Positions 41,569 through 56,562 of a stretch of 64,000 nucleotides of DNA are shown piece after piece. The stretch is from Pyrodictiaceae archaeon (lineage in GTDB: Archaea; Thermoproteota; Thermoprotei_A; Sulfolobales; WANQ01). The stretch covers positions 62,001 to 126,000 of the forward strand of contig WANQ01000003.1 in the NCBI GenBank assembly GCA_015521735.1, in the 5' to 3' direction. The notes beneath the pieces are model-generated. The model saw nothing but the letters and a program-made list of their open reading frames with translations. It did not search any database and was not told the DNA's origin. The position numbers and the translations under genes were made by a program. How positions within the stretch are numbered: position 1 is the stretch's first letter; every line of letters starts with the position of its first letter.

Positions 41569-42138
41569 TTAAACTCTTACATAGTATATGCAATCCTTTA
41601 CGTTGAGAGACCCTTCTATTCCCTCAGTACACCCCTTCTTTTTCAGCAATGTATAGACTATTAAGCTATTCTTTTTAGCTACTTGTCTAACCACATCTAT
41701 TACTTCGCTTACACTCCTATCTAGTAGGTCTAAAACCGTTATCAAGTATATTTTGTTAAACGAGTTTGCTCTGAATGGAATATTGAGTATATCAGCTTGT
41801 ACTAGGTCAACTTTAGGGCTTATATACAAGTCCTTGTTAATGCATTTTAGTAGCATGTTAATACTTATATCTACTCCAACGTAAACATAGTCTCCTTGCA
41901 CCTTGTCTTCAGCTAAGTACTCGTAGAAAAGACATGTACCACAACCAGCATCAAGTACCCTATCTCCTTTACTAGGCATTAACTCGTTTAATTCTATGAC
42001 ATTGTACTTAGCGTACTGTTCATCTCTATATAGTTCATCGTAGCTATCTGCTGTTGAATCATACTTTACCTTAACGTCTACTGAGGAATTCAAGTAAGCT
42101 AACACCACTCTTACTAGTCTTCTGTTTCTCCTTCTCAA
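41569..42138 (-). CDS. Class I SAM-dependent methyltransferase (Trm9/UbiE-like)
   Basis: A 189-residue methyltransferase: motif I VLDAGCGTCLFYEYL, beta-2 VGVDISINML, beta-4 DLVQADILNIPFRANSFNKI. The N-terminal YDSTADSYDELYRDEQY is typical of UbiE/Trm9-like enzymes. The start is uncertain: the frame opens at TTG 42138, overlapping nucS by 68 bases; TTG 42093 would overlap by 23 and still keep the domain. Substrate unknown. Confidence 0.8.
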   Translation of the reverse strand: MRRRNRRLVRVVLAYLNSSVDVKVKYDSTADSYDELYRDEQYAKYNVIELNELMPSKGDRVLDAGCGTCLFYEYLAEDKVQGDYVYVGVDISINMLLKCINKDLYISPKVDLVQADILNIPFRANSFNKIYLITVLDLLDRSVSEVIDVVRQVAKKNSLIVYTLLKKKGCTEGIEGSLNVKDCIYYVRV

Positions 42139-42862
42139 TTATACCTCTAAGCTTCCTAAGATTCAATTGCTTATATTCTAGTCCTAAACGCTCAACTAGT
42201 TCTAATGCTGACTTAGTAATACTTGGTGCAACAAGTATTCCTCTAACATCTCTACCTATAGACTTACGTACAGCTTGAACATACCTGTAGAGCTGGTTTA
42301 CTGCTTCCTTAGTAGCAGTAACTCTCTTCAACTCTATCACAACTATTCTACCATTCCTATCAATACCGTAGAGGTCTACAAAGCCTGGTTCTACTGGTTT
42401 CTCAATACTAGTTATAGACAAGCCTTCTTCTACTAGTTCAGGTTTAGATGCTAGTAGATCACGTATGTCGTGCTCGCTCATGTATTCTATGAATTCTGCT
42501 TTATCAGATAGACTGGAAATAACTACTAGGGAAACCTCGCTCATACGAACAGTTACTACCTCATGTGGCCTCGTCCTAACAGCTTTTAATACAAGGAGTC
42601 CACCTTCAACGTATACGTCTATAATACTGGATTGGGGTTGCCAGTTTACAGGGGAGTAGCCATTAGGTCTATGGACTAGGAATGCCCAGTCGCTTTTCAC
42701 GATAATAATTCTCTCTCCTTCACCAAGCGTACTTGCTCCTCGCCCCTCATAGTCTACAGTACATGAAGCATAGATTAAGACAACCTTATGCTGGGCTATA
42801 GCCTTCCTTATAATATCAGCATATTCTTCTAAGCTAAGACCTTGGTAAACTCTAACATCCAA
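42071..42862 (-). CDS. nucS: NucS/EndoMS mismatch-specific endonuclease
   Basis: Cuts both strands at mismatches in archaea that lack MutS-MutL. The C-terminal nuclease core has D163, E177 and K179 in GFVDLYGIDRNGRIVVIELKR, and the N-terminal binding domain has PVNWQPQSSIIDVY. The C-terminal tail SGVSLLEFLSRR resembles a PCNA-interacting peptide, as known for EndoMS. Start is TTG 42862, with GGAGG about 11 bases upstream. Confidence 0.93.
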   Translation of the reverse strand: MDVRVYQGLSLEEYADIIRKAIAQHKVVLIYASCTVDYEGRGASTLGEGERIIIVKSDWAFLVHRPNGYSPVNWQPQSSIIDVYVEGGLLVLKAVRTRPHEVVTVRMSEVSLVVISSLSDKAEFIEYMSEHDIRDLLASKPELVEEGLSITSIEKPVEPGFVDLYGIDRNGRIVVIELKRVTATKEAVNQLYRYVQAVRKSIGRDVRGILVAPSITKSALELVERLGLEYKQLNLRKLRGIIEKEKQKTSKSGVSLLEFLSRR

Positions 42863-43006
42863 AGCAGTATAACCTCCTACCTGGATTCCACCACTACATT
42901 ATACTCGTCTACCACTTACTCCACGATAATAATGTCACGTAAGTAGATCTTAAAAGACTAGTGTAGACTAGGTAAATGGGTAGAAGTAGCAGACATAGTA
43001 TACCCC

Positions 43007-43012
43007 TTATAA
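43007..43012 (+). promoter_or_regulatory. TATA box of the UPF0282 gene
   Basis: TTATAA at 43007-43012 lies about 22 bases before TTG 43031, so the transcript is probably leaderless or nearly so. Confidence 0.45.
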
Positions 43013-43030
43013 CTTTAGAGATGAGTAGAG

Positions 43031-43915
43031 TTGAAGCTAAAGCTCATAGCATTTGATAGTATGGGAGTTAGATCTATGGCTACAGTAGTTGAGACAAATG
43101 ATGCCAAGATATTCATTGACCCTGGAGCAGCATTAGCTCCACGTAGATATGGTCTACCTCCTCACCCACTAGAATATGAGAGGCTAAACGAGCTACTAGG
43201 CAATATAAGGAAGGAACTTGAGGACACAGACATAGTAATTATATCCCACTACCACTACGACCACTATCTAAGAGATCCAGAAGACGCTGAACTCTACAGG
43301 GGCAAGATATTACTTGTAAAGAATCCAATGGTGTCAATAAATACTAGTCAGAAGATTAGAGCTCACAGGTTATTCAAGAAAAACCGTGTAGAAGAAATAG
43401 CTAGAAAAATAATCGTAGCCGATGGCATAGAATACAGGGTTGACTCTACTATTATAAAATTCTCACAACCCTTACCCCATGGAGTAGAAGGTACACCCCT
43501 AGGCTATGTACTAATGGTAATGGTTGAAGAAGAAGGGTACAGGATACTTCACACAAGTGATGTACAAGGACCTATGCATGATAAGTCTCTAGAACTAATA
43601 CTAGAATGGAGTCCTAACAAGATAATACTATGTGGGCCACCAACATACTTTGAAGGATACAAGGTACCAATTGAATGGGTAAGGAGGGGTCTAGAGAACA
43701 TGGTTAAACTGTTAAGTATAAAAAGTCTTGAAACACTTATAGTAGACCACCACTTGTTAAGGGACATAGACTACATGGAGAAAATAGATGAACTGGTAAG
43801 GCTTTCAAAAGCTGTAGGAGTAAGAGTTCTAAGTGCAGCAGAGTACATGGGCTTAGAAGTCAGCCAACTCGAAGCTAGGAGGAAAGAGCTATGGGGTAGG
43901 GAGGGTGAAGGCTAA
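43031..43915 (+). CDS. UPF0282-family metallo-beta-lactamase-fold hydrolase
   Basis: A 294-residue metal-dependent hydrolase. The MBL motif is ISHYHYDHYLRD, followed by HGVEGTPLG and HTSDVQGP, with VDHHLLRD near the end. The pattern matches archaeal UPF0282 proteins, whose substrate is unknown. TTG 43031 is the start. It overlaps the next gene by 11 bases, so the two are likely linked in function. Confidence 0.88.
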   Translation: MKLKLIAFDSMGVRSMATVVETNDAKIFIDPGAALAPRRYGLPPHPLEYERLNELLGNIRKELEDTDIVIISHYHYDHYLRDPEDAELYRGKILLVKNPMVSINTSQKIRAHRLFKKNRVEEIARKIIVADGIEYRVDSTIIKFSQPLPHGVEGTPLGYVLMVMVEEEGYRILHTSDVQGPMHDKSLELILEWSPNKIILCGPPTYFEGYKVPIEWVRRGLENMVKLLSIKSLETLIVDHHLLRDIDYMEKIDELVRLSKAVGVRVLSAAEYMGLEVSQLEARRKELWGREGEG

Positions 43916-44540
43916 GAACGTATTATTTGTAATAGAGCATCTTGAGCCAAGACTATCTAAGTGGATGCTACTAGAATACAAGCATGCTTCAAAGATAGTT
44001 GGTAGAAGTAGACTGGTAATAACTAATGCACTAGAATTCAAGGATGAACTAAAGGATCTAGGCACAGTCTATGGTGAGAGTATTACCGATATACTAGGAT
44101 CGAAGATAAAATATAGGAAAGCTATAGTACTCGACCCTAAAGCCGGAAAACTACTTGAACCAAACGATATAGTTGATGGCACAGTAATAATAGTTGGAGG
44201 AATAATGGGCGATCACCCACCTAAGGGTAGAACCTGGACTCTATTAACAAGTAAACTACTTGGAAGAGCTGAACCACGTAGCCTAGGCCCCTACCAGTTT
44301 AGTATTGATGGAGCCATCTACATGGCCTACCAGGTAGTATTGGGTAAGAGGTTAAGTGAAGTAGAAGTAGTATACGGTATTGAAGTTGAAGTACCATCAC
44401 CTATTAAGGGGATAACACATAGCATAAAACTACCATACGCTTACCCAGTAGTCAATGGGAAACCCTTACTTGCACCAGGACTACTAGACTACCTTAAATA
44501 CAGTGTACAATTAGAGGAGGAAGAACTAATAGGCAAGTAG
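43905..44540 (+). CDS. SPOUT-like RNA methyltransferase-related protein (DUF431-like)
   Basis: A 211-residue protein resembling archaeal COG2428/DUF431 members with a SPOUT-type knot: VIIVGGIMGDHPPKGRTWTL and LGPYQFSIDGAIYMAYQVVLGK are the characteristic segments near the predicted SAM-binding knot. Likely an RNA methyltransferase; the target is unknown. It starts with GTG 43905 inside the UPF0282 gene. The K-turn hairpin at 44581 lies 40 bases after its stop. Confidence 0.75.
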   Translation: MKAKNVLFVIEHLEPRLSKWMLLEYKHASKIVGRSRLVITNALEFKDELKDLGTVYGESITDILGSKIKYRKAIVLDPKAGKLLEPNDIVDGTVIIVGGIMGDHPPKGRTWTLLTSKLLGRAEPRSLGPYQFSIDGAIYMAYQVVLGKRLSEVEVVYGIEVEVPSPIKGITHSIKLPYAYPVVNGKPLLAPGLLDYLKYSVQLEEEELIGK

Positions 44541-44580
44541 CCATGTGAGCCTATAAGCCTGTTACCCTAAACATAGTTCT

Positions 44581-44628
44581 CTGGACGCTGACTCCCGAGG
44601 AGTTCCTCGGGCTGGATGAAGCGTCCAG
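44581..44628 (+). ncRNA. Kink-turn hairpin (L7Ae-binding RNA candidate)
   Basis: A near-perfect hairpin: outer stem 44581-44588 with 44621-44628 (CTGGACGC/GCGTCCAG, extended by T44589-A44620) and inner stem 44594-44600 with 44605-44611 (CCCGAGG/CCTCGGG, loop AGTT). Between them, G44590/A44591 face G44618/A44619 as tandem G-A pairs, a 3-base bulge GAT (44615-44617) and a C-G pair (C44592-G44614) complete a consensus K-turn. Such motifs bind L7Ae. It could be part of an H/ACA-like or other sRNA, a regulatory 3' UTR, or a relic of a transposon-end structure; no ACA box is seen at the expected place. Confidence 0.55.
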
Positions 44629-44982
44629 TCAAGGCCCCCCAGTCACGTTCTTAGCAGTTACTAGTTCTTCAGGTAGATTCAGGTTGTATAAAGTAAACCA
44701 GGTTAGTATCCAAGCACTATAATACAATGTTACACCCTTACCAAGTATGTGCGTCTTCTTCAATCCCTTAAACATACGGGATACTATGGGTATGGTGGCA
44801 AAGTATAGTATTGTTGCTAGAAACCATCCAATACCACTCTCCATCCACCCACCACTAAGGCTAACCAGCCTACCATCTATTAGCCAGAAAACTACACCGA
44901 CAACCACACCCCATAATAGTCTAAGAACCATTACCTTGCCCTCAACACTAAGACTACCCACGGCTCCTTTAAGCCTAGCCAA
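44629..44982 (-). CDS. Small membrane protein, function unknown
   Basis: A 117-residue protein with about three membrane spans (roughly 18-36, 50-68, 84-104) separated by short basic loops (FKGLKKTH). It is divergent from the NFACT gene, and its stop lies directly beside the K-turn hairpin. No family recognised; the start ATG 44982 gives the best basic-then-hydrophobic N terminus. Confidence 0.6.
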   Translation of the reverse strand: MARLKGAVGSLSVEGKVMVLRLLWGVVVGVVFWLIDGRLVSLSGGWMESGIGWFLATILYFATIPIVSRMFKGLKKTHILGKGVTLYYSAWILTWFTLYNLNLPEELVTAKNVTGGP

Positions 44983-45034
44983 TACTACTTATCCCTCCGT
45001 CTACGCTAAGATGTGTAGTGAGTGGTATAAAGCT

Positions 45035-46996
45035 ATGTCTAAGAAGTCTATGACAATACTAGACGTAAAAGCATGGATAACGGAGACTAAGAGTATTCTA
45101 AGAAATGCTAGAATAGTAAACATCTATGGTGAAGAAAACATCTACCTAGTAAAACTGTGGGCTAAAACCAGTAATGTTAAACCCATACTACTAATTGAAC
45201 CCGGCAGAAGAATACACCTAACAGAATATGAACACAAAGTACACGAGGCTAAAACACCTCCACCCCTAATCCAAGGACTACGTAAGTATCTTCGTGGAGG
45301 AGTAATAGAAGACATAGTACAAGTTGGAAGTGATAGAATAATAGCATTAATTATTAGATCCTCTAATAGCGTCTACAAGCTAATAGTAGAGCTAGTACCA
45401 CGAGGAATAATAGCATTAGTAGACGATAAGGGAAAAATAATCTATTCTTCAGAGTACAAGGAAATGCGTGATAGAGTTATTAGGAGAGGAGAAGAGTATA
45501 AGCCACCACCTCCACCACCAAATATAATAGAGATAGGCGTTGATGAAGCACTAAAACTGATAGGAAAAGGGAAAGATATTGTTAGAGGACTTGTTAGAGG
45601 ACTAGGTATTCCAGGTGAATTAGCAGAAGAAGCTCTAGCACGACTAGGAGTTGACAAGAAGACTAAGGTTAAAGACATAGATAGAAATACATTGAAGAAA
45701 ATATTAGATGAAGTAAGAGGAATCATTAAGAGTGTTGAAGAGGGAAGAATAGAGCCATGCATTGTTGAGGTAAATGGAGTAGCTGAAACAGTACTACCAT
45801 TTAAGCCAATAGCATATGCTAATGCCAAGCTCATAGAGTATAGCTCCTTCAATAAAGCATTAGACGAGTATTTTACGAGAATTGAGAGAGAAGAAAAAGC
45901 GCTTAAGGAGAAGAAGGAAGTAGAAGAGTTGAAGGAGAAGCTATTATCGAGTATAGAGAAGCAGAAGAAGCTAATAGAAGAATATCAGAGTAAGGCTAAG
46001 GAACTTAAAGAAAAAGCTGACATGTTATCTACAAACTATGTTGCCTTAGAAGAAGTAGCAAACTGTGTTAACAAAGTATTTGATTCTAAGGGATGGAATG
46101 GAGTAAAAGAATGTCCCAGTATAGTAGGCTATGATAAGAGTAGGGGAGTAGTTAAGGCACGTATTAGTGGAGTTGAAGTAGAGTTCAAGGTAGGCTCTAA
46201 GCCCTATGACATACTAAGAGAGCTATATGAGGAGGCTAAGAGTTATAGGAGGAAGGCTGAGAAAGCAGAAGAAGCATTAAGGAATCTTGAAGTTAAGCTA
46301 AACGAGCTAGTAGAGAAAGCCCGTAGAATTGCTGAGAAAACTAAGGCTAAGATAAGGCGTAGGGAATGGTATGAAAGATATCATTGGATGATAACTAGTG
46401 GAGGATACCTAGTAATAGGTGGAAGAAACATTGACCAGAATGAATCAATTGTAAGAAAACTCTTAGAACCAAACGATATATTCATGCACGCAGACATACA
46501 TGGAGCACCCGTTGTAGTAGTGAAAACCCAGGGTAAAACACCATCAAGCGAAGATCTACGTGAAGCAGCACTACTAGCAGCATGTTATAGTAAGGCTTGG
46601 AAACAGGGACTAGGCTACGTAGACGTATACTGGGTTAAAGGTAGCCAAGTCTCTAAGTCACCTCCAAGCGGGGAATATTTGCCCAAGGGCTCATTCATGG
46701 TCTACGGTAAACGTAACTATATTAGAGTAGAGCTCAGATTAGGTATAGGCATAGAAGTAATAGATAAATCACCTAGAATAATAATATCACCACCCGACAA
46801 GATATCCAGTAAAACCAGATACTACGCAATACTTGTACCAGGAGATCAAGATCCATCAAAAACTGCTAAAAAGCTAAGAGAACACTGGGTCAAGAAGGCA
46901 CCCAAGGAGGAGAAGCCTATAATAGAGGCTTTAACGGTAGATGATATACGTGAACGCTTACCCGGGAAAAGCCGGGTACTAGTAGTTAAACCTTGA
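45035..46996 (+). CDS. rqcH: NFACT/RqcH-family ribosome quality-control protein
   Basis: Homologue of eukaryotic NEMF/Rqc2 and bacterial RqcH, which bind stalled 60S/50S subunits with peptidyl-tRNA and add C-terminal tails. Order: NFACT-N domain (about 1-200), helix-hairpin-helix region with RGLGIPGELAEEALARLG, a long coiled coil, and NFACT-R (DUF814) with HADIHGAPVVVVKTQGKTP. The frame is open from 44747, but that part overlaps the divergent gene and is low-complexity. ATG 45035 gives the family N terminus MSKKSMTILDVKAW and 653 residues; ATG 45011 is also possible. Confidence 0.9.
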   Translation: MSKKSMTILDVKAWITETKSILRNARIVNIYGEENIYLVKLWAKTSNVKPILLIEPGRRIHLTEYEHKVHEAKTPPPLIQGLRKYLRGGVIEDIVQVGSDRIIALIIRSSNSVYKLIVELVPRGIIALVDDKGKIIYSSEYKEMRDRVIRRGEEYKPPPPPPNIIEIGVDEALKLIGKGKDIVRGLVRGLGIPGELAEEALARLGVDKKTKVKDIDRNTLKKILDEVRGIIKSVEEGRIEPCIVEVNGVAETVLPFKPIAYANAKLIEYSSFNKALDEYFTRIEREEKALKEKKEVEELKEKLLSSIEKQKKLIEEYQSKAKELKEKADMLSTNYVALEEVANCVNKVFDSKGWNGVKECPSIVGYDKSRGVVKARISGVEVEFKVGSKPYDILRELYEEAKSYRRKAEKAEEALRNLEVKLNELVEKARRIAEKTKAKIRRREWYERYHWMITSGGYLVIGGRNIDQNESIVRKLLEPNDIFMHADIHGAPVVVVKTQGKTPSSEDLREAALLAACYSKAWKQGLGYVDVYWVKGSQVSKSPPSGEYLPKGSFMVYGKRNYIRVELRLGIGIEVIDKSPRIIISPPDKISSKTRYYAILVPGDQDPSKTAKKLREHWVKKAPKEEKPIIEALTVDDIRERLPGKSRVLVVKP

Positions 46997-47012
46997 GTGG
47001 AGGCGTGGAATT

Positions 47013-47462
47013 GTGGGAGAGGAAAGACCACTCCTTGTAAGAGACATAATGGTCTATGATCCAGTCATGGTTACTCCTGATACAAATGTAGTGGAAATAG
47101 CTAAGATAATGAAAGAAAAGAATATTGGTAGCGTAATAGTAGTAGAGGATGGTAGACTAGTTGGAATAGTAACTGAAGAAGACTTGATAAGAAGAGTTCT
47201 AGCTGAAGGAAGAGATCCTGTAAGAACTAAGGCAGCAGACGTCATGACAAGACCCGTAGTATACGTATCTCCTGATACAGAGCTTAAGGAAGCAGCACTA
47301 TTAATGGCAAGACTAGGTATAGGGCATTTACCAGTAGTTGAAGGTAATAGAGTTGTAGGTATAATAGCTGAGTACGATATAGTAAGACTTACACCAGAAC
47401 TAATAGAACTACTATATGTTAAGGGGAAGTTTAAGTCTACTAGTGGTGTTGAAGTAGAATAA
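47013..47462 (+). CDS. CBS-domain pair protein (first of five)
   Basis: A 149-residue stand-alone Bateman module with two CBS motifs: VRDIMVYDPVMVTPDTNVVEIAKIMKEKNIGSVIVV, and ADVMTRPVVYVSPDTELKEAALLMARLGIGHLPVV. The GIVTEEDLIRRVL segment after each sheet contributes to adenine-nucleotide binding. Such proteins sense AMP, ADP, ATP or SAM. Start is GTG 47013, 16 bases after rqcH with GGAGGCG upstream. It is the first of five consecutive CBS genes. Confidence 0.88.
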   Translation: MGEERPLLVRDIMVYDPVMVTPDTNVVEIAKIMKEKNIGSVIVVEDGRLVGIVTEEDLIRRVLAEGRDPVRTKAADVMTRPVVYVSPDTELKEAALLMARLGIGHLPVVEGNRVVGIIAEYDIVRLTPELIELLYVKGKFKSTSGVEVE

Positions 47463-47654
47463 CTTTCTACTATCTCTCGTTTTAATTCTTGTTCATAGCT
47501 CCACCTAGAGTCTTATACCTTAACCTATATTTAACCTGGAAGCACCTAGATAAAACTGGGTGTACTAGCCTTCGCTCTACGTATTCTAGAATTCTTCTCG
47601 AGAAATCATCCAGTACTTAAACCAGACGATCCAGCCTTACGTGCTAGAAAGGTT

Positions 47655-48365
47655 ATGAGGGATACTGGTGTAAGAATAATACCTATAGTAGAATCACGTT
47701 CTCTAAAAGGAATTATTAGTAGGTTAGGTGTACTTAGCATAACATCTTCTAGGTCTAATCTAAGAGCAATTGACATAGCAGAAGAACCATTAGTAGTAGT
47801 TAACCCTCAAGACGAGCTTAATAGTGTAGTAGATAGAATGCTTAGAGTTGATGAATGGTATGCACCAGTAGTAAATGAAAGAAACGAGTACCTAGGAGTT
47901 CTAGGCCTAGAACACATAATATCCTATTTCATATCTAAAGAAGATAAACCTAAAGCACTATTTAACCCAGTAGAACAATACATGACACGTGAAGTAGAAT
48001 TCGTTAAAATAGACGACCACGTATCACGTTTATGGAAGAAGATGTTGAAGTATAGATATGCTGGCTACCCTGTTCTAGACGATAAGGATAGGGTAATAGG
48101 TGTTGTAACCCAATACGACTTACTAAGGTACGGGTTTACTAGGATAGATCTTGAATCTGAGAGTCCTCCTAGAAAAGGCCCACGTGTAAGAGAGATAATG
48201 TCTACTCCACCAATAACAGTTAAGCCTAAGGACCAATTACTTAAAGTGGCCGAGACAATGATTACACGTGGTATAGGTAGAGTAGTAGTCGTAGACGATA
48301 TAGGACACCTTGTAGGAATAGTTGATAGAGAGGATGTAGTTAAAGCTATTATGGGTAAAACCTAA
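47655..48365 (+). CDS. Multi-CBS protein (second of five), 5' end uncertain
   Basis: From ATG 47655 it encodes 236 residues covering the end of a first CBS motif and three complete ones (EYLGVLGLEHII, VEQYMTREVEFV..., VREIMSTPPITVKP...). The first motif is truncated at that ATG: the same frame continues upstream for about 33 codons (VLKPDDPALRARKV immediately before), which is normal CBS sequence, but holds no ATG, GTG or TTG. A TATA box TATATTTA (47526-47533) predicts transcription start near 47555, next to CTG 47556; ATT 47583 is another option. The true gene probably begins there. Confidence 0.75.
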   Translation: MRDTGVRIIPIVESRSLKGIISRLGVLSITSSRSNLRAIDIAEEPLVVVNPQDELNSVVDRMLRVDEWYAPVVNERNEYLGVLGLEHIISYFISKEDKPKALFNPVEQYMTREVEFVKIDDHVSRLWKKMLKYRYAGYPVLDDKDRVIGVVTQYDLLRYGFTRIDLESESPPRKGPRVREIMSTPPITVKPKDQLLKVAETMITRGIGRVVVVDDIGHLVGIVDREDVVKAIMGKT

Positions 48366-48423
48366 CATGGTAATCCTTATTATCCATTAAACATATATTA
48401 CTAGTCTATGAGGAGGATACATC

Positions 48424-49368
48424 TTGTATAGACCAGCCCCTAAGCCTCGAAGAGTTGAAGGATATCGTTGGCTTAGAAGTGATGGTACTCCTAACTTCTC
48501 AGACCACGTATATAGACGTGAAGGAGAAGTAGCCCGTATAGCTAAAACTGATCTAAAAACAGCATCACCTACAACACCTATCCTAGAACTAGCAGAGTCT
48601 ATGACATACAATAACATTAGAAGTATACCAATAGTTAATAGTAAGCTCGAGTTAGAGGGACTAGTACTTGCAACAAGTATAGTTAACTACATTGGTGGAG
48701 GAGAACTATACAACATAGTAGTTGAAAGACATGGTAAAAACATTTACAGTGCTTTAAGAGAGCCTGCATCAACAATAATGATAAGGAACCCCATAGTAGC
48801 TAAGATAACTGATAAGATAACCAAGGTATTAGAGAAAATGATACTTGAAGGTATAGGTGTAGTACCAGTACTAGACGAAGAGGACAAGATATACGGTATA
48901 ATTACCGAGAGAGACCTAGTAGAATACTTCGCCGAGAAAGAGGAAGTAGGGGTTAGTGTTTCAGAAGTTATGTCTAAGGAAGTAATAACAATAAACCGTG
49001 AAGCAACGGTTAAGAAGGCAGCAGAGACTATGATTAAGCTAGGTTTTCGGCGATTACCAGTAGTTGAGGAGGAGAAAATAGCTGGCATGGTGACTGCTAA
49101 AGATATTGTAAGATTTATTGGTAGCCACGAAGTATTCAAGAAGACGACTACAGGGAATATCGAGGAGGCCTTATCAACACCTATAGTAGAGGTTATGAAC
49201 AAGTTCGTTTACACAATACCACCTACAACAGATATTGGTGAAGCAGCTAAACAGATGATGGAGAAAGGTGTAAGTAGCCTACTAGTTGTTGAAGACGAGA
49301 GACTCCTAGGAATTGTTACTGAAAGAGACATTCTATACGGTATTCTCGTGAAAACAGGTAAGAGGTAG
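48424..49368 (+). CDS. Four-CBS protein (third of five)
   Basis: A 314-residue protein with an N-terminal degenerate region (HVYRREGEVARIAKTDLKTASPTTPILELAE) and about four CBS motifs, among them IMIRNPIVAKITDKITKVLEK, VSEVMSKEVITINREATVKKAAETM and VEVMNKFVYTIPPTTDIGEAAKQM. Each ends in GIVTERDILYGIL-like helices that line the nucleotide sites. TTG 48424 has GAGGAGG about 8 bases upstream and a TATA-like CATATATTA before that, so this gene may have its own promoter. Confidence 0.85.
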   Translation: MYRPAPKPRRVEGYRWLRSDGTPNFSDHVYRREGEVARIAKTDLKTASPTTPILELAESMTYNNIRSIPIVNSKLELEGLVLATSIVNYIGGGELYNIVVERHGKNIYSALREPASTIMIRNPIVAKITDKITKVLEKMILEGIGVVPVLDEEDKIYGIITERDLVEYFAEKEEVGVSVSEVMSKEVITINREATVKKAAETMIKLGFRRLPVVEEEKIAGMVTAKDIVRFIGSHEVFKKTTTGNIEEALSTPIVEVMNKFVYTIPPTTDIGEAAKQMMEKGVSSLLVVEDERLLGIVTERDILYGILVKTGKR

Positions 49369-49375
49369 GCTAAGA

Positions 49376-50215
49376 GTGCCAGTAAAGGTTTCATCATATA
49401 TGTCTTCACCAGTAATAGCAGCCTCACCATACGATAACCTAGCCCACATACGTAACCTAATGATAAGGCATCACGTAGGTAGAATAGTCATAGTAGAAGA
49501 CAATAAACCTGTAGGGATAATAACAAAGAACGACTTCATAAGAGCCTTGTTCTCTAGAAGAAGATACACTAAGCCTTTAGAGGAAATAAAAGCAGAGGAA
49601 ATAATGACTAGAAACATAGTTGTTATAGAGGAGAATAAGAGTATTAAGAATGCAGCTAAGCTCATGTTAAGATACAGTATTAGTGGTTTACCAGTTGTGT
49701 CAAGAGAGGGTATGCTGGTAGGTATAATAACTTTAACAGATCTTACAAGAGCTTATGCTGAAAGATATCAGGGTAAGCTAAGAGTAGCAGATGTAATGAG
49801 AAGGAACCCCTCAGTAGTTTCTAGAAGCCATAGCCTATTCTACGTAGTAGACCTATTATCTAAGGATCCTGCAGGTAAAGTCGTTGTAGTAGAAGGTGGT
49901 AAGCCTATAGGCATTATAGCTGAAAGCGATATAGCATTTATTAACACGCTAGCTCTCCCAAGAGATGTAAAGTACATTAAACGTGTTAGTACAGCTAAGG
50001 GTAGAGCAACAACTATAAGAGTATACGCTATGCCCATAGCAGCAGACATAATGACACCTAACCCCCTAACAGCTAAGCCTCTCGAAGACTTAGCATTAGC
50101 AGCTGACACGATGATAAAGAATAATATCAGTATACTACCAGTAGTAGACGAAGAAGATAACTTAATGGGTATTGTAACTAAGATTGAAATAGCTAAAGCT
50201 ATTACAAGACTCTAA
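49376..50215 (+). CDS. Four-CBS protein (fourth of five)
   Basis: A 279-residue protein made of two Bateman modules: VSSYMSSPVIAASPYDNLAHIRNLM, AEEIMTRNIVVIEENKSIKNAAKLM, VADVMRRNPSVVSRSHSLFYVVDLL and AADIMTPNPLTAKPLEDLALAADTM. It starts with GTG 49376, 8 bases after the previous stop, so it is co-transcribed with it. No fused catalytic or DNA-binding domain is present. Confidence 0.88.
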   Translation: MPVKVSSYMSSPVIAASPYDNLAHIRNLMIRHHVGRIVIVEDNKPVGIITKNDFIRALFSRRRYTKPLEEIKAEEIMTRNIVVIEENKSIKNAAKLMLRYSISGLPVVSREGMLVGIITLTDLTRAYAERYQGKLRVADVMRRNPSVVSRSHSLFYVVDLLSKDPAGKVVVVEGGKPIGIIAESDIAFINTLALPRDVKYIKRVSTAKGRATTIRVYAMPIAADIMTPNPLTAKPLEDLALAADTMIKNNISILPVVDEEDNLMGIVTKIEIAKAITRL

Positions 50216-50241
50216 AACGGTATACTAGGAGATGATGGGCT

Positions 50242-51060
50242 ATGAGTGTCTCGGATAAGGCTAAGACTAGGATAGGAGATGTTATGGAGAAAGAATTCCC
50301 CATAGTAGATAAAGATGAAACACTCTACCATGCAGTAAAGGTTATGGAGAAATACGGTTATGATAGAGTAGTTGTTGTTGAAGAAGGAAGACTTGTAGGT
50401 GTTGCTACAAAAAAGGATATACTAATGAAGCTTGGAACAGAACGTACTAGAAGAACAACACCTAGTAGAATGCATATATCAAGCTTCATGACACCAAACC
50501 CTATAACAATAACACCTGAAAAAACAATTGGAGAAGCAGCTAAAACAATGGTGTCTAGGGAAATTAGTAGCCTACCCGTAGTAGAAGGCAATGAACTAGT
50601 AGGACTAGTAACCAAGACTACTATAGCAAAACTATTAGTAGACCTAGATGTACCAGTAAGAGAGGTAATGACTACTAGCCCTATAGCAGTTAAGTTAACC
50701 GATAGAGTACTACATGTTAGACAATTAATACTAAACGAAGGATTAACATTTATACCAGTAATAGACGAGGAGGGAAGAGTCCTAGGATCAATATCAATAG
50801 ACGAAGTAGCTGATGCCCTATTCGCATTCCACGACATAGTACCAGAAAAACATAGAAAGGAGAGAATACAACACCTACTAGTATCAGATGTAATGAGGCT
50901 AAGACCACCAAAAGCTAGTGCAACTGATCCACTAGGAGAAGTAATAAAGGACATGTTGAAGAGAAGATATCGTGGAGCAATAATAGTTGACGATGAGGGT
51001 AGACCTATAGGAGTAGTAACTTTAACAGACATAACAGAATACATGGCAACACTAGCATAA
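50242..51060 (+). CDS. Four-CBS protein (fifth of five)
   Basis: A 272-residue protein of two Bateman modules: IGDVMEKEFPIVDKDETLYHAVKVM, ISSFMTPNPITITPEKTIGEAAKTM, VREVMTTSPIAVKLTDRVLHVRQLI and VSDVMRLRPPKASATDPLGEVIKDM. ATG 50242 follows GGAGATGATGGG. The gene lies 26 bases after the fourth CBS gene and ends the array; the next 160 bases to the Mut7-C gene contain no ORF. Confidence 0.88.
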   Translation: MSVSDKAKTRIGDVMEKEFPIVDKDETLYHAVKVMEKYGYDRVVVVEEGRLVGVATKKDILMKLGTERTRRTTPSRMHISSFMTPNPITITPEKTIGEAAKTMVSREISSLPVVEGNELVGLVTKTTIAKLLVDLDVPVREVMTTSPIAVKLTDRVLHVRQLILNEGLTFIPVIDEEGRVLGSISIDEVADALFAFHDIVPEKHRKERIQHLLVSDVMRLRPPKASATDPLGEVIKDMLKRRYRGAIIVDDEGRPIGVVTLTDITEYMATLA

Positions 51061-51293
51061 ACATTACACCTGTTAACTAAACAGTTTTTAAGATACAACT
51101 ACTAGGCATAGAATACTTCATACAATAAACCACGTAGAGGCCTTAAAGATACCAACTCTAGTGAATTAGCTGGCCTAGGAGGACAATAGTATTAGTCTTC
51201 TAGATTGTAGTCAACCATGTTTTATTGCTTTTATACCCCTATATACTGAAATATTGTATCCTAGGATATAGTGTATTGAAGGAAGATGCTAAG

Positions 51294-51824
51294 ATGAATA
51301 GGGAATCCGTAGAACTAAAGTTCGTAGTTGACACTATGCTCGGAGACCTTGCCCGATGGCTACGAATACTAGGCTATGATACAAAGTATTCTAGAAGCTA
51401 CGAGGACTGGCAATTACTAAGGATAGCCGAGAACGAGAATAGGGTGTTATTAACTAGGGATAGAGGATTGTACTGGAGAGCTAGGAGAAAGGGTTTACAA
51501 GCAGTCCTAGTGACAAGTGATGATATTGCTGGAAGACTCTACGAGGTCTCCAAGAAATACCCTATAAGACTCTACGTTGACTTCACGTTAACTAGGTGTA
51601 GTATCTGTAATACACCGTTAATCAAGGTCAATAAGGAGGAAGTAAAGGACAATGTACCTAGACCAGTATATGAGAAATACCATGACTTCTGGATATGTCC
51701 TAGATGCGGTAAGGTTTACTGGCGTGGAAGCCACTGGATTAAAATAGAGGAAATACTAAGCCAGGTAAGGGGGATGATTAATGAGTGGAAGCGAGCCCGT
51801 ACATCCAAGAGAGTTAAGCTTTGA
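51294..51824 (+). CDS. Mut7-C RNase-domain protein (PIN-like with zinc ribbon)
   Basis: A 176-residue protein of the Mut7-C family, a PIN-like putative RNase fused to a zinc ribbon. The PIN-like part has [22 protein letters not shown] and [13 protein letters not shown] with conserved Asp residues; the ribbon has CSIC and [14 protein letters not shown]. The frame opens at 51225, but ATG 51294 fits the family start and lies some 50 bases after a TATA-like TTTTATACC near 51229-51237. Its end overlaps the AMMECR1 gene by 44 bases. Confidence 0.85.
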
Positions 51825-52461
51825 AGAAGGAGTATTCCTCGTAAAACTAGCTAGACGAGCAGTAGAAGAGTTCCTAAAGAATGGAGTTAAGATTAAGCCA
51901 TCTGAAAACACTCCACCAAAACTACTAAGACCAGGTATGACTTTTACAACCATAGAAGTATTCCATGACTACCATAGACGTAGCCTAAGAGGATGTATAG
52001 GTTATCTTCAACCCATTACAAGCCTCGTCCAATCAGTAATAGATACGGCAATACAAGCAGCAGTAGAAGACCCCCGATTCCCACCAATGCATGCAGGAGA
52101 ACTAGACTACGTAACCTTTGAAGTCTCAGTACTCTCAACACCAAAACTACTAAAAGTAGAAAACCGCTGGGAACTACCCAAACACGTCATAGTAGGTAAG
52201 CACGGACTAATAGTAGAGAGGAGAATATACAAGGGAACACTACTACCACAAGTACCAGTAGAGTATGGCTGGGACTCTGAAACATTCCTAGCAGAAACAT
52301 GCCTAAAAGCAGGCCTTAGCCCAGACTGCTGGCTTGACGAAAAAACACGCATCTACGTATACGAAGCAAGACTATGGCGAGAAAAAGAGCCAAAAGGAGA
52401 AATAGAAGAAAGAGACATGACCAAAGAACTAGAAGAACTATGGAAGAGTACAAGTAAATAA
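51781..52461 (+). CDS. AMMECR1-family protein
   Basis: A 226-residue protein with the AMMECR1 signature [13 protein letters not shown] and the later [35 protein letters not shown] and [11 protein letters not shown]. The LRGCIG box with its cysteine is almost invariant from archaea to humans. Biochemical function is unknown; links to Memo-type partners have been proposed. ATG 51781 overlaps the upstream gene by 44 bases, implying co-expression. Confidence 0.92.
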
Positions 52462-52585
52462 GAAGCACAACGAATAGAACGCGAACTTACAGCATGTATA
52501 AAAACCTTCTGTACATCACCTCTATCAAGATTACTGTCTAGATATTTTTAGCAATCAATAATAGTATACTCTCTTAAGGGTAAAG

Positions 52586-53110
52586 ATGTTTAGTTCAGGT
52601 AGAAGAAAGAAACCAGGTTTGATACTTATATTGCTATCGTCAGTAGCATTACTATCAATTATAACACTATCACTGATAAAGCCTACGCCAGGAGTAGAGA
52701 TATCACTAGAGTTCTATGATAAAGGCATACTCGTTAAATCATGGCTAGGCATTCCTAGTCTCCCTAAAGGCAGAGTATACGTTGAAGTATACGCCATAGC
52801 TCCACCAGGATATAGTGAACCCGAAGTCAAGATATTCAATGGAACACTAAAATCGCCTAGAATATTCATACCGTATTCTGGTAAGTTCAAGGAAATAGTA
52901 GACAAATACTATAAGTGGCTTAGCAAAGCACCAATAACAAACAGCGTCCGTGAAACATCAAAATATGGTCTAAGAGTAGACTTATGGATGATATCAGAGA
53001 ACAACATTATCCAAAGCTACACATACTACGTAACCCATAGCCCGTGGAAAATACATAAAGGAAGGGATAGCTATACCACCTTCTACTTTCAGCAATATCT
53101 TTCAAGCTAA
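52586..53110 (+). CDS. Membrane-anchored extracellular protein, function unknown
   Basis: A 174-residue protein with a basic N terminus (SSGRRKKPG) followed by one hydrophobic span (about 11-31) and an ectodomain rich in beta strands and aromatic residues. The topology is N-in with the bulk outside. No family recognised. It starts at ATG 52586, 124 bases after the AMMECR1 gene, and faces the gene-poor island. Confidence 0.6.
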   Translation: MFSSGRRKKPGLILILLSSVALLSIITLSLIKPTPGVEISLEFYDKGILVKSWLGIPSLPKGRVYVEVYAIAPPGYSEPEVKIFNGTLKSPRIFIPYSGKFKEIVDKYYKWLSKAPITNSVRETSKYGLRVDLWMISENNIIQSYTYYVTHSPWKIHKGRDSYTTFYFQQYLSS

Positions 53111-53621
53111 ATAATATAAGAGATAAGAGTTAATAATTGAGATGTGTGCTTTAAGGAATTTTAAGACATTAAGTCCTTCTAACATTAATGCAACGATAAA
53201 ACTCATCAAATAAAGGAAATGGAGTCTATATGGTCTTTAGGAAATACTACAACAAAATGCTACAACATAAGGACAAGGCTTAAAGCTTTTAAGAAGCATG
53301 GACAAATAAGGAAAGCTTAACAGAGTAAAAGCATATAAGGCAAAGAAAATCTATCAAAGGTTTTAAGAGGTGTCACGGTTAGTTGACCAATCAAAGAATG
53401 TTCAAGTAGCTACATAAGAAACGTACATAACACGTACAAAATAAATAACTAAAAAGCATAAATACTCTAATAACTTTAGTAAGCAAAATATCAAAACATT
53501 AGGTTAATCTGTAACTAAGAAACGAATCTTTTCCAAGTAGTCAGAAGATAGGGTTGTCAACAATATTCGGGAAACCTAGAAATATCTGTAATGAACATAA
53601 CATTAAGGGGGCTACTAGGTA
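53111..53621. other. AT-rich gene-poor interval
   Basis: About 510 bases, richer in A and T than the neighbours, with no convincing gene. A 33-codon frame at 53219-53320 (ending with AFKKHGQIRKA) is the longest reading frame I note; it has no ribosome site and I do not assign it. No tRNA, inverted terminal repeats or target duplications are apparent. It might be a decayed integration. Confidence 0.35.
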
Positions 53622-55253
53622 ATGAATAAAATGATCCCAGCCCTATTAATACTAATGACACTTGTCATCTTAGTACCACAAATCACGCATGCAACAATAC
53701 GCGCACAACCACCAATACAAAAGCTCTGGGAGAGCGAAGAACTAGGAGGATGGGTGAAGAGTATTGCTTGGTCACCAGATGGCACAAAAATAGCAGTAGG
53801 TATAGGGTGGCGTGAAAAGATAGGAGATAAGTACTATTATCATGGTGAGATCCTTATCTTCTCTTCGTCGGGCAAGTTATTATGGAAAAGTGATGACTTA
53901 GGTGATCATGTACGGTGTGTTGCTTGGTCACCTGATGGTAGTAAACTAGCTGTTGGAGGAGACTTTGGTAAAGTCATAGTGTTTACCTGGGCTGGTTTAC
54001 CTCTAACTTCACCAACTACATCGACGGTCAACTATGTAACTCTTGAACCTACTTGGAGTTTGCGTACAACAGCTTCCACTATTGTTAACTCCTCATCAAG
54101 TGTTGTTGGCTTTAACTGGTTCCCGGCAATCTTAGTCGTTGGTATCGGGAGTATTGTTACCGCTATTCTGTTTACTGTTCGCATCAGAAGACGCAGTATT
54201 CCTAGCAAAGCAATTAGTGAGGAATCTAGTGTTACTGGAGAAGTAGCTCATCCAAGAGGCAGGTTTAGCGGAAGTTTCAGAGGAGGTAATTTCAGTAAAA
54301 TGAGCGATGTTTCTTATGATGTTGTTGAATCTGTTCTTAGTATGAGTCTTAATGGGTTAATAAGCGGTTATGGTTGTATTGAAGGCCACACTCCTAGGGA
54401 GGTTGTGTTGAGACCAGGAATTGCCCCTAACGGCTTCGAGGGCTTGTGGAAGTGTTGCTTACTTGGTTGCGGTGGTTGGGGTTGCGCGTACTTATGTAGC
54501 CAGGATAACAGAGAAGTTGTCTTCAAGGTGCCTAGAGGTTTCGAATCAATTTTTGAGGATGGTTTCGTACCTACTGTTGACGTGGGACTGCTTGAGAGAA
54601 TTAGAAATGAAGCGGAGGTTCTGAGGGGGCTAAAACATCCCTGCATTCTTAGATTACTCGGTGTAGCCAAGTCTGCACCCGTCCTTGCTTACGAGTTTGC
54701 TGAGGGCGGATCACTCGACTGGCAACTCTCCCATGGATGGTCCCCAAGCTTAAGAGATGTTCTCCTAATAGGTATTCAGGTTGGTGATGCTCTACGATAT
54801 ATTCACTCAAGAGGTCTTATTCATGGAGATATTAAGCCTGGTAACATCTTCATCAAGAACGGTGTTGCTAAGGTAGGAGACTTCTCCTCAATTGTTAGGT
54901 TAGTGACGATGAGCTCCAGGTTATCGAGGCTGTCTTATACACCAGGTTTCAGATCACCTGAGCAAGTATTTGCTGATCTGAGAAGGAGAGTAAGGGAGTT
55001 AGGGCTTGAGTCGAGGATAGACACGTACCTCTTAGGTAATCTCCTCCTGTACCTACTAACTAGAAGATCAGTGGATGGTGAGGAGGCTGTAGGTAGTAAT
55101 GAAGTCGAAAAAGCAACCGAAGCAATAGAGGATCCCGAACTAAGGGAGGTAATTAGGGAAGCGCTAAACCCTAACCCGCTACAAAGGCCATCAACGGAAG
55201 AGGTCGTCAAGAAACTACTAAGAATATGGATAAGTAGATATGGAAAACAATGA
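53622..55253 (+). CDS. WD40-transmembrane-Ser/Thr kinase protein
   Basis: A 543-residue receptor-like protein. A signal peptide (about 1-25) is followed by two WD40-type repeats (VKSIAWSPDGTKIAVG at 45-60 and VRCVAWSPDGSKLAVGG at 97-113), a Ser/Thr-rich linker, a membrane span (about 168-187) ending in RIRRR, and a cytoplasmic kinase domain (about 275-540). Kinase motifs: Gly-rich LGCGGWGCAYLC, lysine K302 in VVFKVPRG, catalytic HGDIKPGN (HGD for HRD), and GDFSS (DFS for DFG), then RSPEQ. Two repeats cannot close a 7-blade propeller, so the sensor seems truncated. Base usage shifts to a higher GC, different codons after about codon 85. Confidence 0.82.
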   Translation: MNKMIPALLILMTLVILVPQITHATIRAQPPIQKLWESEELGGWVKSIAWSPDGTKIAVGIGWREKIGDKYYYHGEILIFSSSGKLLWKSDDLGDHVRCVAWSPDGSKLAVGGDFGKVIVFTWAGLPLTSPTTSTVNYVTLEPTWSLRTTASTIVNSSSSVVGFNWFPAILVVGIGSIVTAILFTVRIRRRSIPSKAISEESSVTGEVAHPRGRFSGSFRGGNFSKMSDVSYDVVESVLSMSLNGLISGYGCIEGHTPREVVLRPGIAPNGFEGLWKCCLLGCGGWGCAYLCSQDNREVVFKVPRGFESIFEDGFVPTVDVGLLERIRNEAEVLRGLKHPCILRLLGVAKSAPVLAYEFAEGGSLDWQLSHGWSPSLRDVLLIGIQVGDALRYIHSRGLIHGDIKPGNIFIKNGVAKVGDFSSIVRLVTMSSRLSRLSYTPGFRSPEQVFADLRRRVRELGLESRIDTYLLGNLLLYLLTRRSVDGEEAVGSNEVEKATEAIEDPELREVIREALNPNPLQRPSTEEVVKKLLRIWISRYGKQ

Positions 55254-55662
55254 GTAGATGCTATTGCCTATGATATGGTTAGATTACAATTTTCTATACT
55301 GGGTAATGTCTTTTTAGCATGTGAGTTCTCATACTCTGTATATAGTCCTAACTAAATACTTAGTAGTTTCTCTTCGATTTCTTAGCGAACACCTCCCTTA
55401 AGTGGGACATTTATTCTCTTCTCTCTGAGACATTATTCATATACAGCTAAAAACATTGAAAAGTACACAACAGATACCGATATTAATTTATAAGCTTGGA
55501 ATAATTGGTAAAAATAATCAAACCATAGAAAATATGTAAGCAGAAACAAGTATAGCACCTACAACTACTCAGTACTGCTTCTGGATAACACAATGGACGA
55601 TTACACCAGAAGACCTGGCAAGCAACGGAGTATCAAGCATACAATACAATGGGCAAACATTT
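55254..55662. other. Non-coding stretch and broken 5' end of the next gene
   Basis: About 410 bases. The 3' third is in frame with the following gene, open from a TAA at 55537-55539. A TATA-like AATTTATAAG (about 55487-55496) precedes an ATG at 55534 that is followed at once by that TAA. The remainder shows no gene. Confidence 0.4.
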
Positions 55663-56562
55663 GTGGAAACACCACTAGTAATAGTATATAACTATGGAGC
55701 ATACTTAGGAATCCTTAGGACTAGCTTAGAGTTGTCAACGGAATACAATACCGGGGTAGCTGTAGGCATAGGGGTAGGCTACAAGATATCAGCTAAGGTG
55801 GGTAGTGAAAGTTATGATATAGTAAACCTAGGTGTAACGTTATATAAGTCGGGGTACTCTATTGAAAAGGAAATAGCGTTCGGATACAGCATAGACACAC
55901 TCCCTAATGCTGAGAACTACATATACATTTACACGCGACCATATGTAGTGTTTGAGAAAGAGAAATGTTACTACTATGGTGACCCAGTAGGCTACTATAC
56001 AGGTAATGAGAGGTTAAGATTGTATATAAGCGAGATAGCTGTTAATGGTGTTTACGCTATAGGCGGAATGAAGAATGGTAGTCCACCATACGTGTTATAT
56101 GATTTATTGTTTAACGACAATGCTAGTATTGAGCAAATAATTAGAATAGACCAAACACCTACTAGTGATGGAGACCTTGATCCTGGTGAAAGCATATTGT
56201 TTAAGCACGTATTCAACTACTATGATGTATGCGGAGTAGATTTCGAAGCATCAGTACCCATAGGCTTAATTGCAGGTAGTATATGTACAGCTGCATCACT
56301 TGGTACTTGTTCACCTTTCGCGTTACTGCTCTCAGCGATATCAATATCATTAGAGCTTAATCCTAGTGCAGCATCGGTAACTGTTGGTGGCTTGCTCTCA
56401 AACTGTGGTGATGGAAGTTATTGTGGTTTACCACCTATTGGAGGATACAACGTATATGAGGAATTGTATATGAGGATTAGTAAGCTGAAGTATCGTGCAT
56501 ATACATGGTATGGTTACTGTGAATTCCAAGTACCAGTAGCATTCTATGTGAAATCGTGGTAG
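55663..56562 (+). CDS. Putative surface protein, possibly 5'-truncated
   Basis: From GTG 55663 it is a 299-residue beta-rich protein with aromatic and Cys residues (CYYYGDPVGYYTG, LLSNCGDGSYCGLPP, YGYCEFQVP) and one hydrophobic helix (about 205-232), typical of secreted or S-layer-associated archaeal proteins. The frame is open a further 41 codons upstream (AETSIAPTTTQYCFWITQW and onward) with no normal start and no signal peptide, stopping at a TAA directly after an ATG at 55534. It may be a pseudogene that has lost its signal peptide. No family recognised. Confidence 0.5.
   Translation: METPLVIVYNYGAYLGILRTSLELSTEYNTGVAVGIGVGYKISAKVGSESYDIVNLGVTLYKSGYSIEKEIAFGYSIDTLPNAENYIYIYTRPYVVFEKEKCYYYGDPVGYYTGNERLRLYISEIAVNGVYAIGGMKNGSPPYVLYDLLFNDNASIEQIIRIDQTPTSDGDLDPGESILFKHVFNYYDVCGVDFEASVPIGLIAGSICTAASLGTCSPFALLLSAISISLELNPSAASVTVGGLLSNCGDGSYCGLPPIGGYNVYEELYMRISKLKYRAYTWYGYCEFQVPVAFYVKSW

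Follow-up and report, generated by a model that had tools for sequence, protein, structure and literature searches.

The study of ribosome storage in archaea has only just opened, with Dri, HibA and Sri described between 2024 and 2026. PMC13324472 (Nat Commun 2026) defines the families CM-1 to CM-6, names a 'CM-5/4/1/2 cluster', derives Dri from a fusion of CM-1 and CM-5, places the functional loops of Dri and HibA in the linker between CBS3 and CBS4, and leaves the role of CM-2 undecided. The hibernation factor Dri of Pyrobaculum calidifontis (PDB 9E6Q, 9E7F) is a single fused eight-CBS protein, and HibA of Pyrococcus abyssi (PDB 9SR9 and others) is a four-CBS module acting on ribosomes that bears a C-terminal HPF/RaiA (S30AE) domain; deleting hibA in T. 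barophilus slows the exit from stationary phase. The Sri proteins are named in the titles of three PDB entries released in January 2026, in which the Methanosarcina acetivorans 70S ribosome is in complex with SriA and SriB (9ZNF), with SriD (9ZNG) or with SriC and SriD (9ZNI). The chains themselves are labelled 'CBS domain-containing protein', and all three entries share their uS12 chain with 9O17, the M. acetivorans 70S. The entry titles establish which chain is SriD and leave SriC by elimination, and SriA was tentatively told from SriB by chain order.

The locus compared here lies in the window, i.e., the whole 64,000-nucleotide stretch of DNA that was analysed, and consists of five consecutive plus-strand genes, P1 to P5, at 47013–51060 (Table 1). 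The preliminary description had counted around 18 CBS motifs in these genes; a whole-genome Pfam CBS search returned exactly 18 over threshold, split 2+4+4+4+4. The genome as a whole gives 37 matches, so that half of them fall in the array, a density far beyond chance. As had been stated, none of the genes is fused to an enzyme, channel or DNA-binding domain, since hmmscan placed no non-CBS domain over its cut-off in P1–P5. The array directly follows rqcH, whose identity was confirmed by the model NF041120 RqcH_arch (648 bits versus a cut-off of 400), and the gaps from rqcH through P5 amount to 16, 93, 58, 7 and 26 bp. The true start of rqcH is probably near 45035–45050, because residue 103 of the longest open reading frame is the first one covered by the RqcH_arch model. 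Downstream, the gene for a Mut7-C RNase-domain protein, with its true start probably at 51294, and that for an AMMECR1-family protein are conserved neighbours in the order. No Rfam match was found across 42000–56000. PADLOC gave zero matches for P1–P5, which leaves a defence role without support.

The 5′ end of P2 was re-bounded, because the earliest in-frame ATG (47655) is preceded by its first CBS motif and because an alignment with the orthologue in a sister genus (L013) sets CTG 47556, codon for codon, against the TTG start of that gene. A stop at 47547 leaves the frame open from 47550, and the non-standard CTG 47556 is the probable start, giving a protein of 269 aa. TATA-like boxes are found about 25–30 nt upstream of the P2 start in both the window and the sister genus, and the element in the window suggests a leaderless transcript of its own for P2. 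Automatic annotation would cut P2 short at ATG 47655.

Table 1. Coordinates of the CBS array, its neighbours and the Dri gene of the same genome (window positions unless another locus is given).
Feature	Position	Strand	Basis or remark
rqcH, NFACT family, ribosome quality control	44747–46996	+	NFACT domains; directly upstream of P1
P1, unfused CBS pair, 149 aa, head gene of the cluster	47013–47462	+	Pfam CBS, synteny
TATA-like element TATATTTAA	47526–47534	+	sequence; about 25–30 nt before the probable P2 start
P2, four-CBS module, CM-5/SriA-like, 269 aa (probable start)	about 47556–48365	+	domains, PDB match, tree
P3, four-CBS module, CM-4/SriB-like	48424–49368	+	domains, PDB match, tree
P4, four-CBS module, CM-1/SriC-like	49376–50215	+	domains, PDB match, tree
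P5, four-CBS module, CM-2/SriD-like	50242–51060	+	domains, PDB match, tree, AF2 fold match
Mut7-C RNase-domain protein	51225–51824	+	domain, synteny; conserved downstream neighbour in the order
AMMECR1-family protein	51781–52461	+	domain, synteny; next conserved neighbour after Mut7-C
Dri	L004 4029–5888 (G000:C41:66031-67887)		eight-CBS CM-5+CM-1 fusion

A sequence search of the PDB linked P2–P5 to the ribosome-bound chains. The closest chains were 9znf_4 for P2 (E = 1.2e-31), 9znf_5 for P3 (E = 1.1e-48) and 9zni_7 for P5 (5.6e-31), and P4 matched 9zng_7, 9zni_6 and 9zni_7 at near-equal scores (9zni_6, 6.4e-31; 9zng_7 slightly better). P2 also matched the N-terminal half of Dri, and P4 its C-terminal half. 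The AlphaFold2 model of P5 (pLDDT 91.8) gave a fold match to 9ZNG chain 7, which is SriD on the ribosome (TM 0.88/0.93).

In a tree of 76 modules, CM-4 fell on one side of a branch with support of 100/100 and CM-2 on one side of a branch with 99/91; CM-5 grouped with both DriN rows (100/99) and CM-1 with both DriC rows (100/100). Each Sri chain shares its clade with one protein of the window, 9znf_4 pairing with P2, 9znf_5 with P3, 9zni_6 with P4 and 9zni_7 with P5. Because the rows were labelled by BLAST best hit, the tree confirms the labels but is no independent choice of them; the Dri halves are the basis for the names CM-5 and CM-1, and the cluster order for CM-4 and CM-2. P2–P5 are thus unfused four-CBS proteins of the right clades, in a genome without HibA, and their order CM-5, CM-4, CM-1, CM-2 is identical to the published one (PMC13324472). 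By sequence, P2–P5 are assigned to these four ancient families, as counterparts of SriA, SriB, SriC and SriD. The same gene order occurs in L117/G286, a relative with modules that the tree places as near-identical to the Sri chains. That system is from Halobacteriota, whereas the window belongs to Thermoproteota; P5 and SriD share about 28% identity, and the window differs further by its neighbours rqcH, Mut7-C and AMMECR1 and by a P1 without the two-CxxC tail of Halobacteriota. The published cluster agrees in its four-CBS families, their order and the exclusion with HibA, but the passages of PMC13324472 consulted do not mention the two-CBS head gene P1, and rqcH is absent from its text.

The order of the window was sampled as 147 genomes, with CM-2 present in 64. 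Around CM-2, the arrangement P1-CM5-CM4-CM1-CM2 was found with some genes missing or moved: CM-5 and CM-1 are jointly lost in family f9, P1 is absent from family f2, and in part of family f5 CM-5 and CM-1 are sited elsewhere in the genome (family f7 is Pyrodictiaceae). A profile built from 29 CM-2 sequences contained no stretch of sufficient conservation for scanning the collection. Scanning it with a single protein yielded 11 loci, one of them in Methanocellales (L098), where all five genes occur in the same order, packed or overlapping; this led to the comparison with Halobacteriota. There, the exact order P1-CM5-CM4-CM1-CM2 is present in 28 of 41 loci. The view that the array genes belong together is borne out by this order, preserved across two archaeal phyla. 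Scattered orthologues, which the preliminary description had named as evidence against it, do occur in part of the order (families f5 and f9), but not as a general pattern. Adjacency of rqcH to the cluster, seen in 12/45 Thermoproteota loci versus 0/41 in Halobacteriota, is lineage-specific, so that the cluster adjoins this ribosome-rescue gene in part of the window's lineage, while P1, upstream in both phyla, is by its position part of the ancient arrangement. One Halobacteriota locus (L107) has a 630-aa CM-4/CM-1 open frame, a possible fusion.

P1 lies directly upstream of the cluster in 39/41 Halobacteriota loci and in 29/45 Thermoproteota loci of the window's lineage, the Halobacteriota figure describing cluster-bearing genomes rather than all genomes, since the 41 loci were picked by the presence of CM-4. 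This positional conservation across Thermoproteota and Halobacteriota suggests that P1 belongs to the ancient arrangement. At least two CxxC pairs follow the CBS pair in 38 of the 39 Halobacteriota counterparts, forming a two-CxxC tail that is a putative metal ribbon; the window's lineage is without it. The P1 model resembles ordinary CBS pairs, including the metal-binding Ta0289, and the PDB sequence search found no specific match for P1 among the ribosome-entry chains. A tree of array P1s and other CBS pairs of the same genomes, with few comparison sequences, neither recovered nor rejected a single clade of the array P1s (AU p 0.31). In the papers found, P1 is a conserved fifth gene without a published description; in PMC13324472, proteins with one CBS tandem fall mostly outside the E-value cut. 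In two Halobacteriota loci (L137, L140), P1-type frames of 421–422 aa carry four CxxC and are possible fusions.

The window's own genome also encodes a full-length Dri of 619 aa with eight CBS motifs (1.8e-66 to the Pyrobaculum protein), unlinked to the array. The Dri halves group with CM-5 and CM-1, but in the window these are separate genes, and the fused form is found at G000:C41:66031-67887. Across the order, the Dri fusion has not simply taken the place of the unfused modules, because 37 of 38 Dri genomes keep CM-2 and 24 of the 38 a stand-alone CM-1. HibA is absent, since the genome has no S30AE domain, and the window proteins resemble HibA as four-CBS modules but carry no HPF/RaiA domain. 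Among the 147 genomes, HibA was found in 40, CM-2 in 64 and both in none (Fisher 5e-13, uncorrected for kinship). This reproduces at a finer scale, within the window's order, the HibA–CM-2 exclusion given in PMC13324472. HibA and Dri never co-occur in the 147 genomes, and HibA and CM-1 are found together in four f2 genomes. What this analysis adds to the published picture is P1 as head gene, Dri alongside the array and the exclusion of HibA and CM-2 within an order; a Sri-type set is hereby documented in a hyperthermophile lineage that also retains Dri.

Taken by analogy with the described factors, the array is very probably a conserved archaeal ribosome-hibernation cluster, in which P2–P5 would occupy idle ribosomes. 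Family membership, gene order and co-occurrence come from the present analysis, and the ribosome binding of the relatives is the work of others; the function in this organism, the binding sites of P2–P5, the role of P1 and any control by AMP or ATP are what we infer from them. Most likely, P2–P5 would attach to idle 70S ribosomes and obstruct their functional centres. Because of the Dri sites (PMC13324472 and PDB titles) and the shared clades, P2 is predicted at the peptidyl-transferase centre of the large subunit, by homology to the N-terminal half of Dri, and P4 on the small subunit, inside the mRNA channel, by homology to the C-terminal half. P4 has the longest CBS3–CBS4 linker, which is strongly basic (+6 net). 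P3 and P5 would be the partners of P2 and P4, modelled on SriA+SriB (9ZNF) and SriC+SriD (9ZNI), and P1 would probably be a regulatory or ligand-sensing accessory, or a fifth factor. The hint of a link to translation or stress in the preliminary description, drawn from rqcH, is supported, the relatives being ribosome-bound factors of the Sri, Dri and HibA type. Since the genome also has Dri, some of what the array does may be duplicated, or its main role may be a different one. A more far-reaching proposal, which we put forward tentatively and hold to be somewhat doubtful, is that the ancestor shared by Thermoproteota and Halobacteriota already had the five-gene unit, with P1 as an overlooked component (another ribosome ligand, or a switch that senses nucleotides or metals), and that the separate four-module set and the fused Dri make up two hibernation systems per cell in part of the window's order.

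It had been suggested that the array encodes a hetero-oligomeric energy sensor. Such a soluble assembly of P1–P5, which would read AMP, ADP or ATP like AMPK gamma and control other enzymes, would account for the fold matches of P5 to AMPK gamma chains and to AMP-bound SSO3205, the latter with the best Foldseek E-value, although CBS folds are generic. It would also fit P3, since MJ1225, which the PDB lists as a putative archaeal gamma-AMPK homologue and which has the same four-CBS disk fold, groups with P3/CM-4 in the tree, and since CM-4 shows the fullest retention of the (T/S)xxD ribose signature among the families (all four sites in 79–100% of the family). In the window, however, the signature is retained in only 9 of 18 motifs; P3 is tied to SriB by gene order and clade, and the cluster has no kinase partner. 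The four counterparts sit in 70S ribosome entries, where the PDB titles have them working in pairs (SriA+SriB, SriC+SriD). PMC13324472 keeps the AMPK-gamma-like CM-6 apart from CM-1/2/4/5, and it contains the closest biochemistry, according to which HibA binds AMP without a clear effect on ribosome binding. We therefore regard an energy sensor of this kind as unlikely. Nucleotide sensing and ribosome binding are not mutually exclusive, and control of the cluster proteins by adenine nucleotides is possible from the retained signatures.

Two further readings are less probable still. P2–P5 match the NCBIfam HhpR model at 65–78 bits, as would be expected if they were four-CBS transcription regulators of the HhpR (CM-3) type, acting on gene expression and not on ribosomes; these scores are far below the 520-bit cut-off and reflect generic CBS similarity, no DNA-binding domain is present, and the best and clade-level affinity of P2–P5 is to Sri and Dri chains, which makes this reading highly improbable. 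Tandem duplication, offered earlier as an origin of the array, agrees with adjacent genes of a single fold, but the paralogues are about 24–35% identical, whereas the nearest orthologues in the tree lie across phyla, and the order is fixed in Thermoproteota and Halobacteriota. A duplication origin can thus be retained at best as a very old event, each gene being nearer to its orthologue in the other phylum than to its own neighbour, and a recent local duplication without concerted function has a next to negligible chance of being correct. The duplication test on single motifs, comparing same with different motif positions, was uninformative (p 0.89 by sequence, p 0.13 by profile). The hibernation cluster is thus the reading that we prefer.

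Several minor observations were made in passing. In a complete genome of family f9 (G021:C1:205890-209700), Dri appears as two pieces separated by about 1.9 kb, both of which contain an in-frame stop, and is possibly broken or interrupted. In 24 of the 147 genomes (e.g., G008, G018, G037), neither CM-2 nor a strong CM-1, full-length Dri or HibA was detected, and members of family f6 have a distant, 330-aa DriN-like match that is a possible further factor. In the window, a few genes past the array, 53622–55253 encodes a protein that has WD40-like repeats in its N-terminal part, a protein kinase domain at the C-terminus (Pfam Pkinase, 91.7 bits; PADLOC similarity to mad6 and the PD-T4-6 kinase) and a transmembrane-like stretch.
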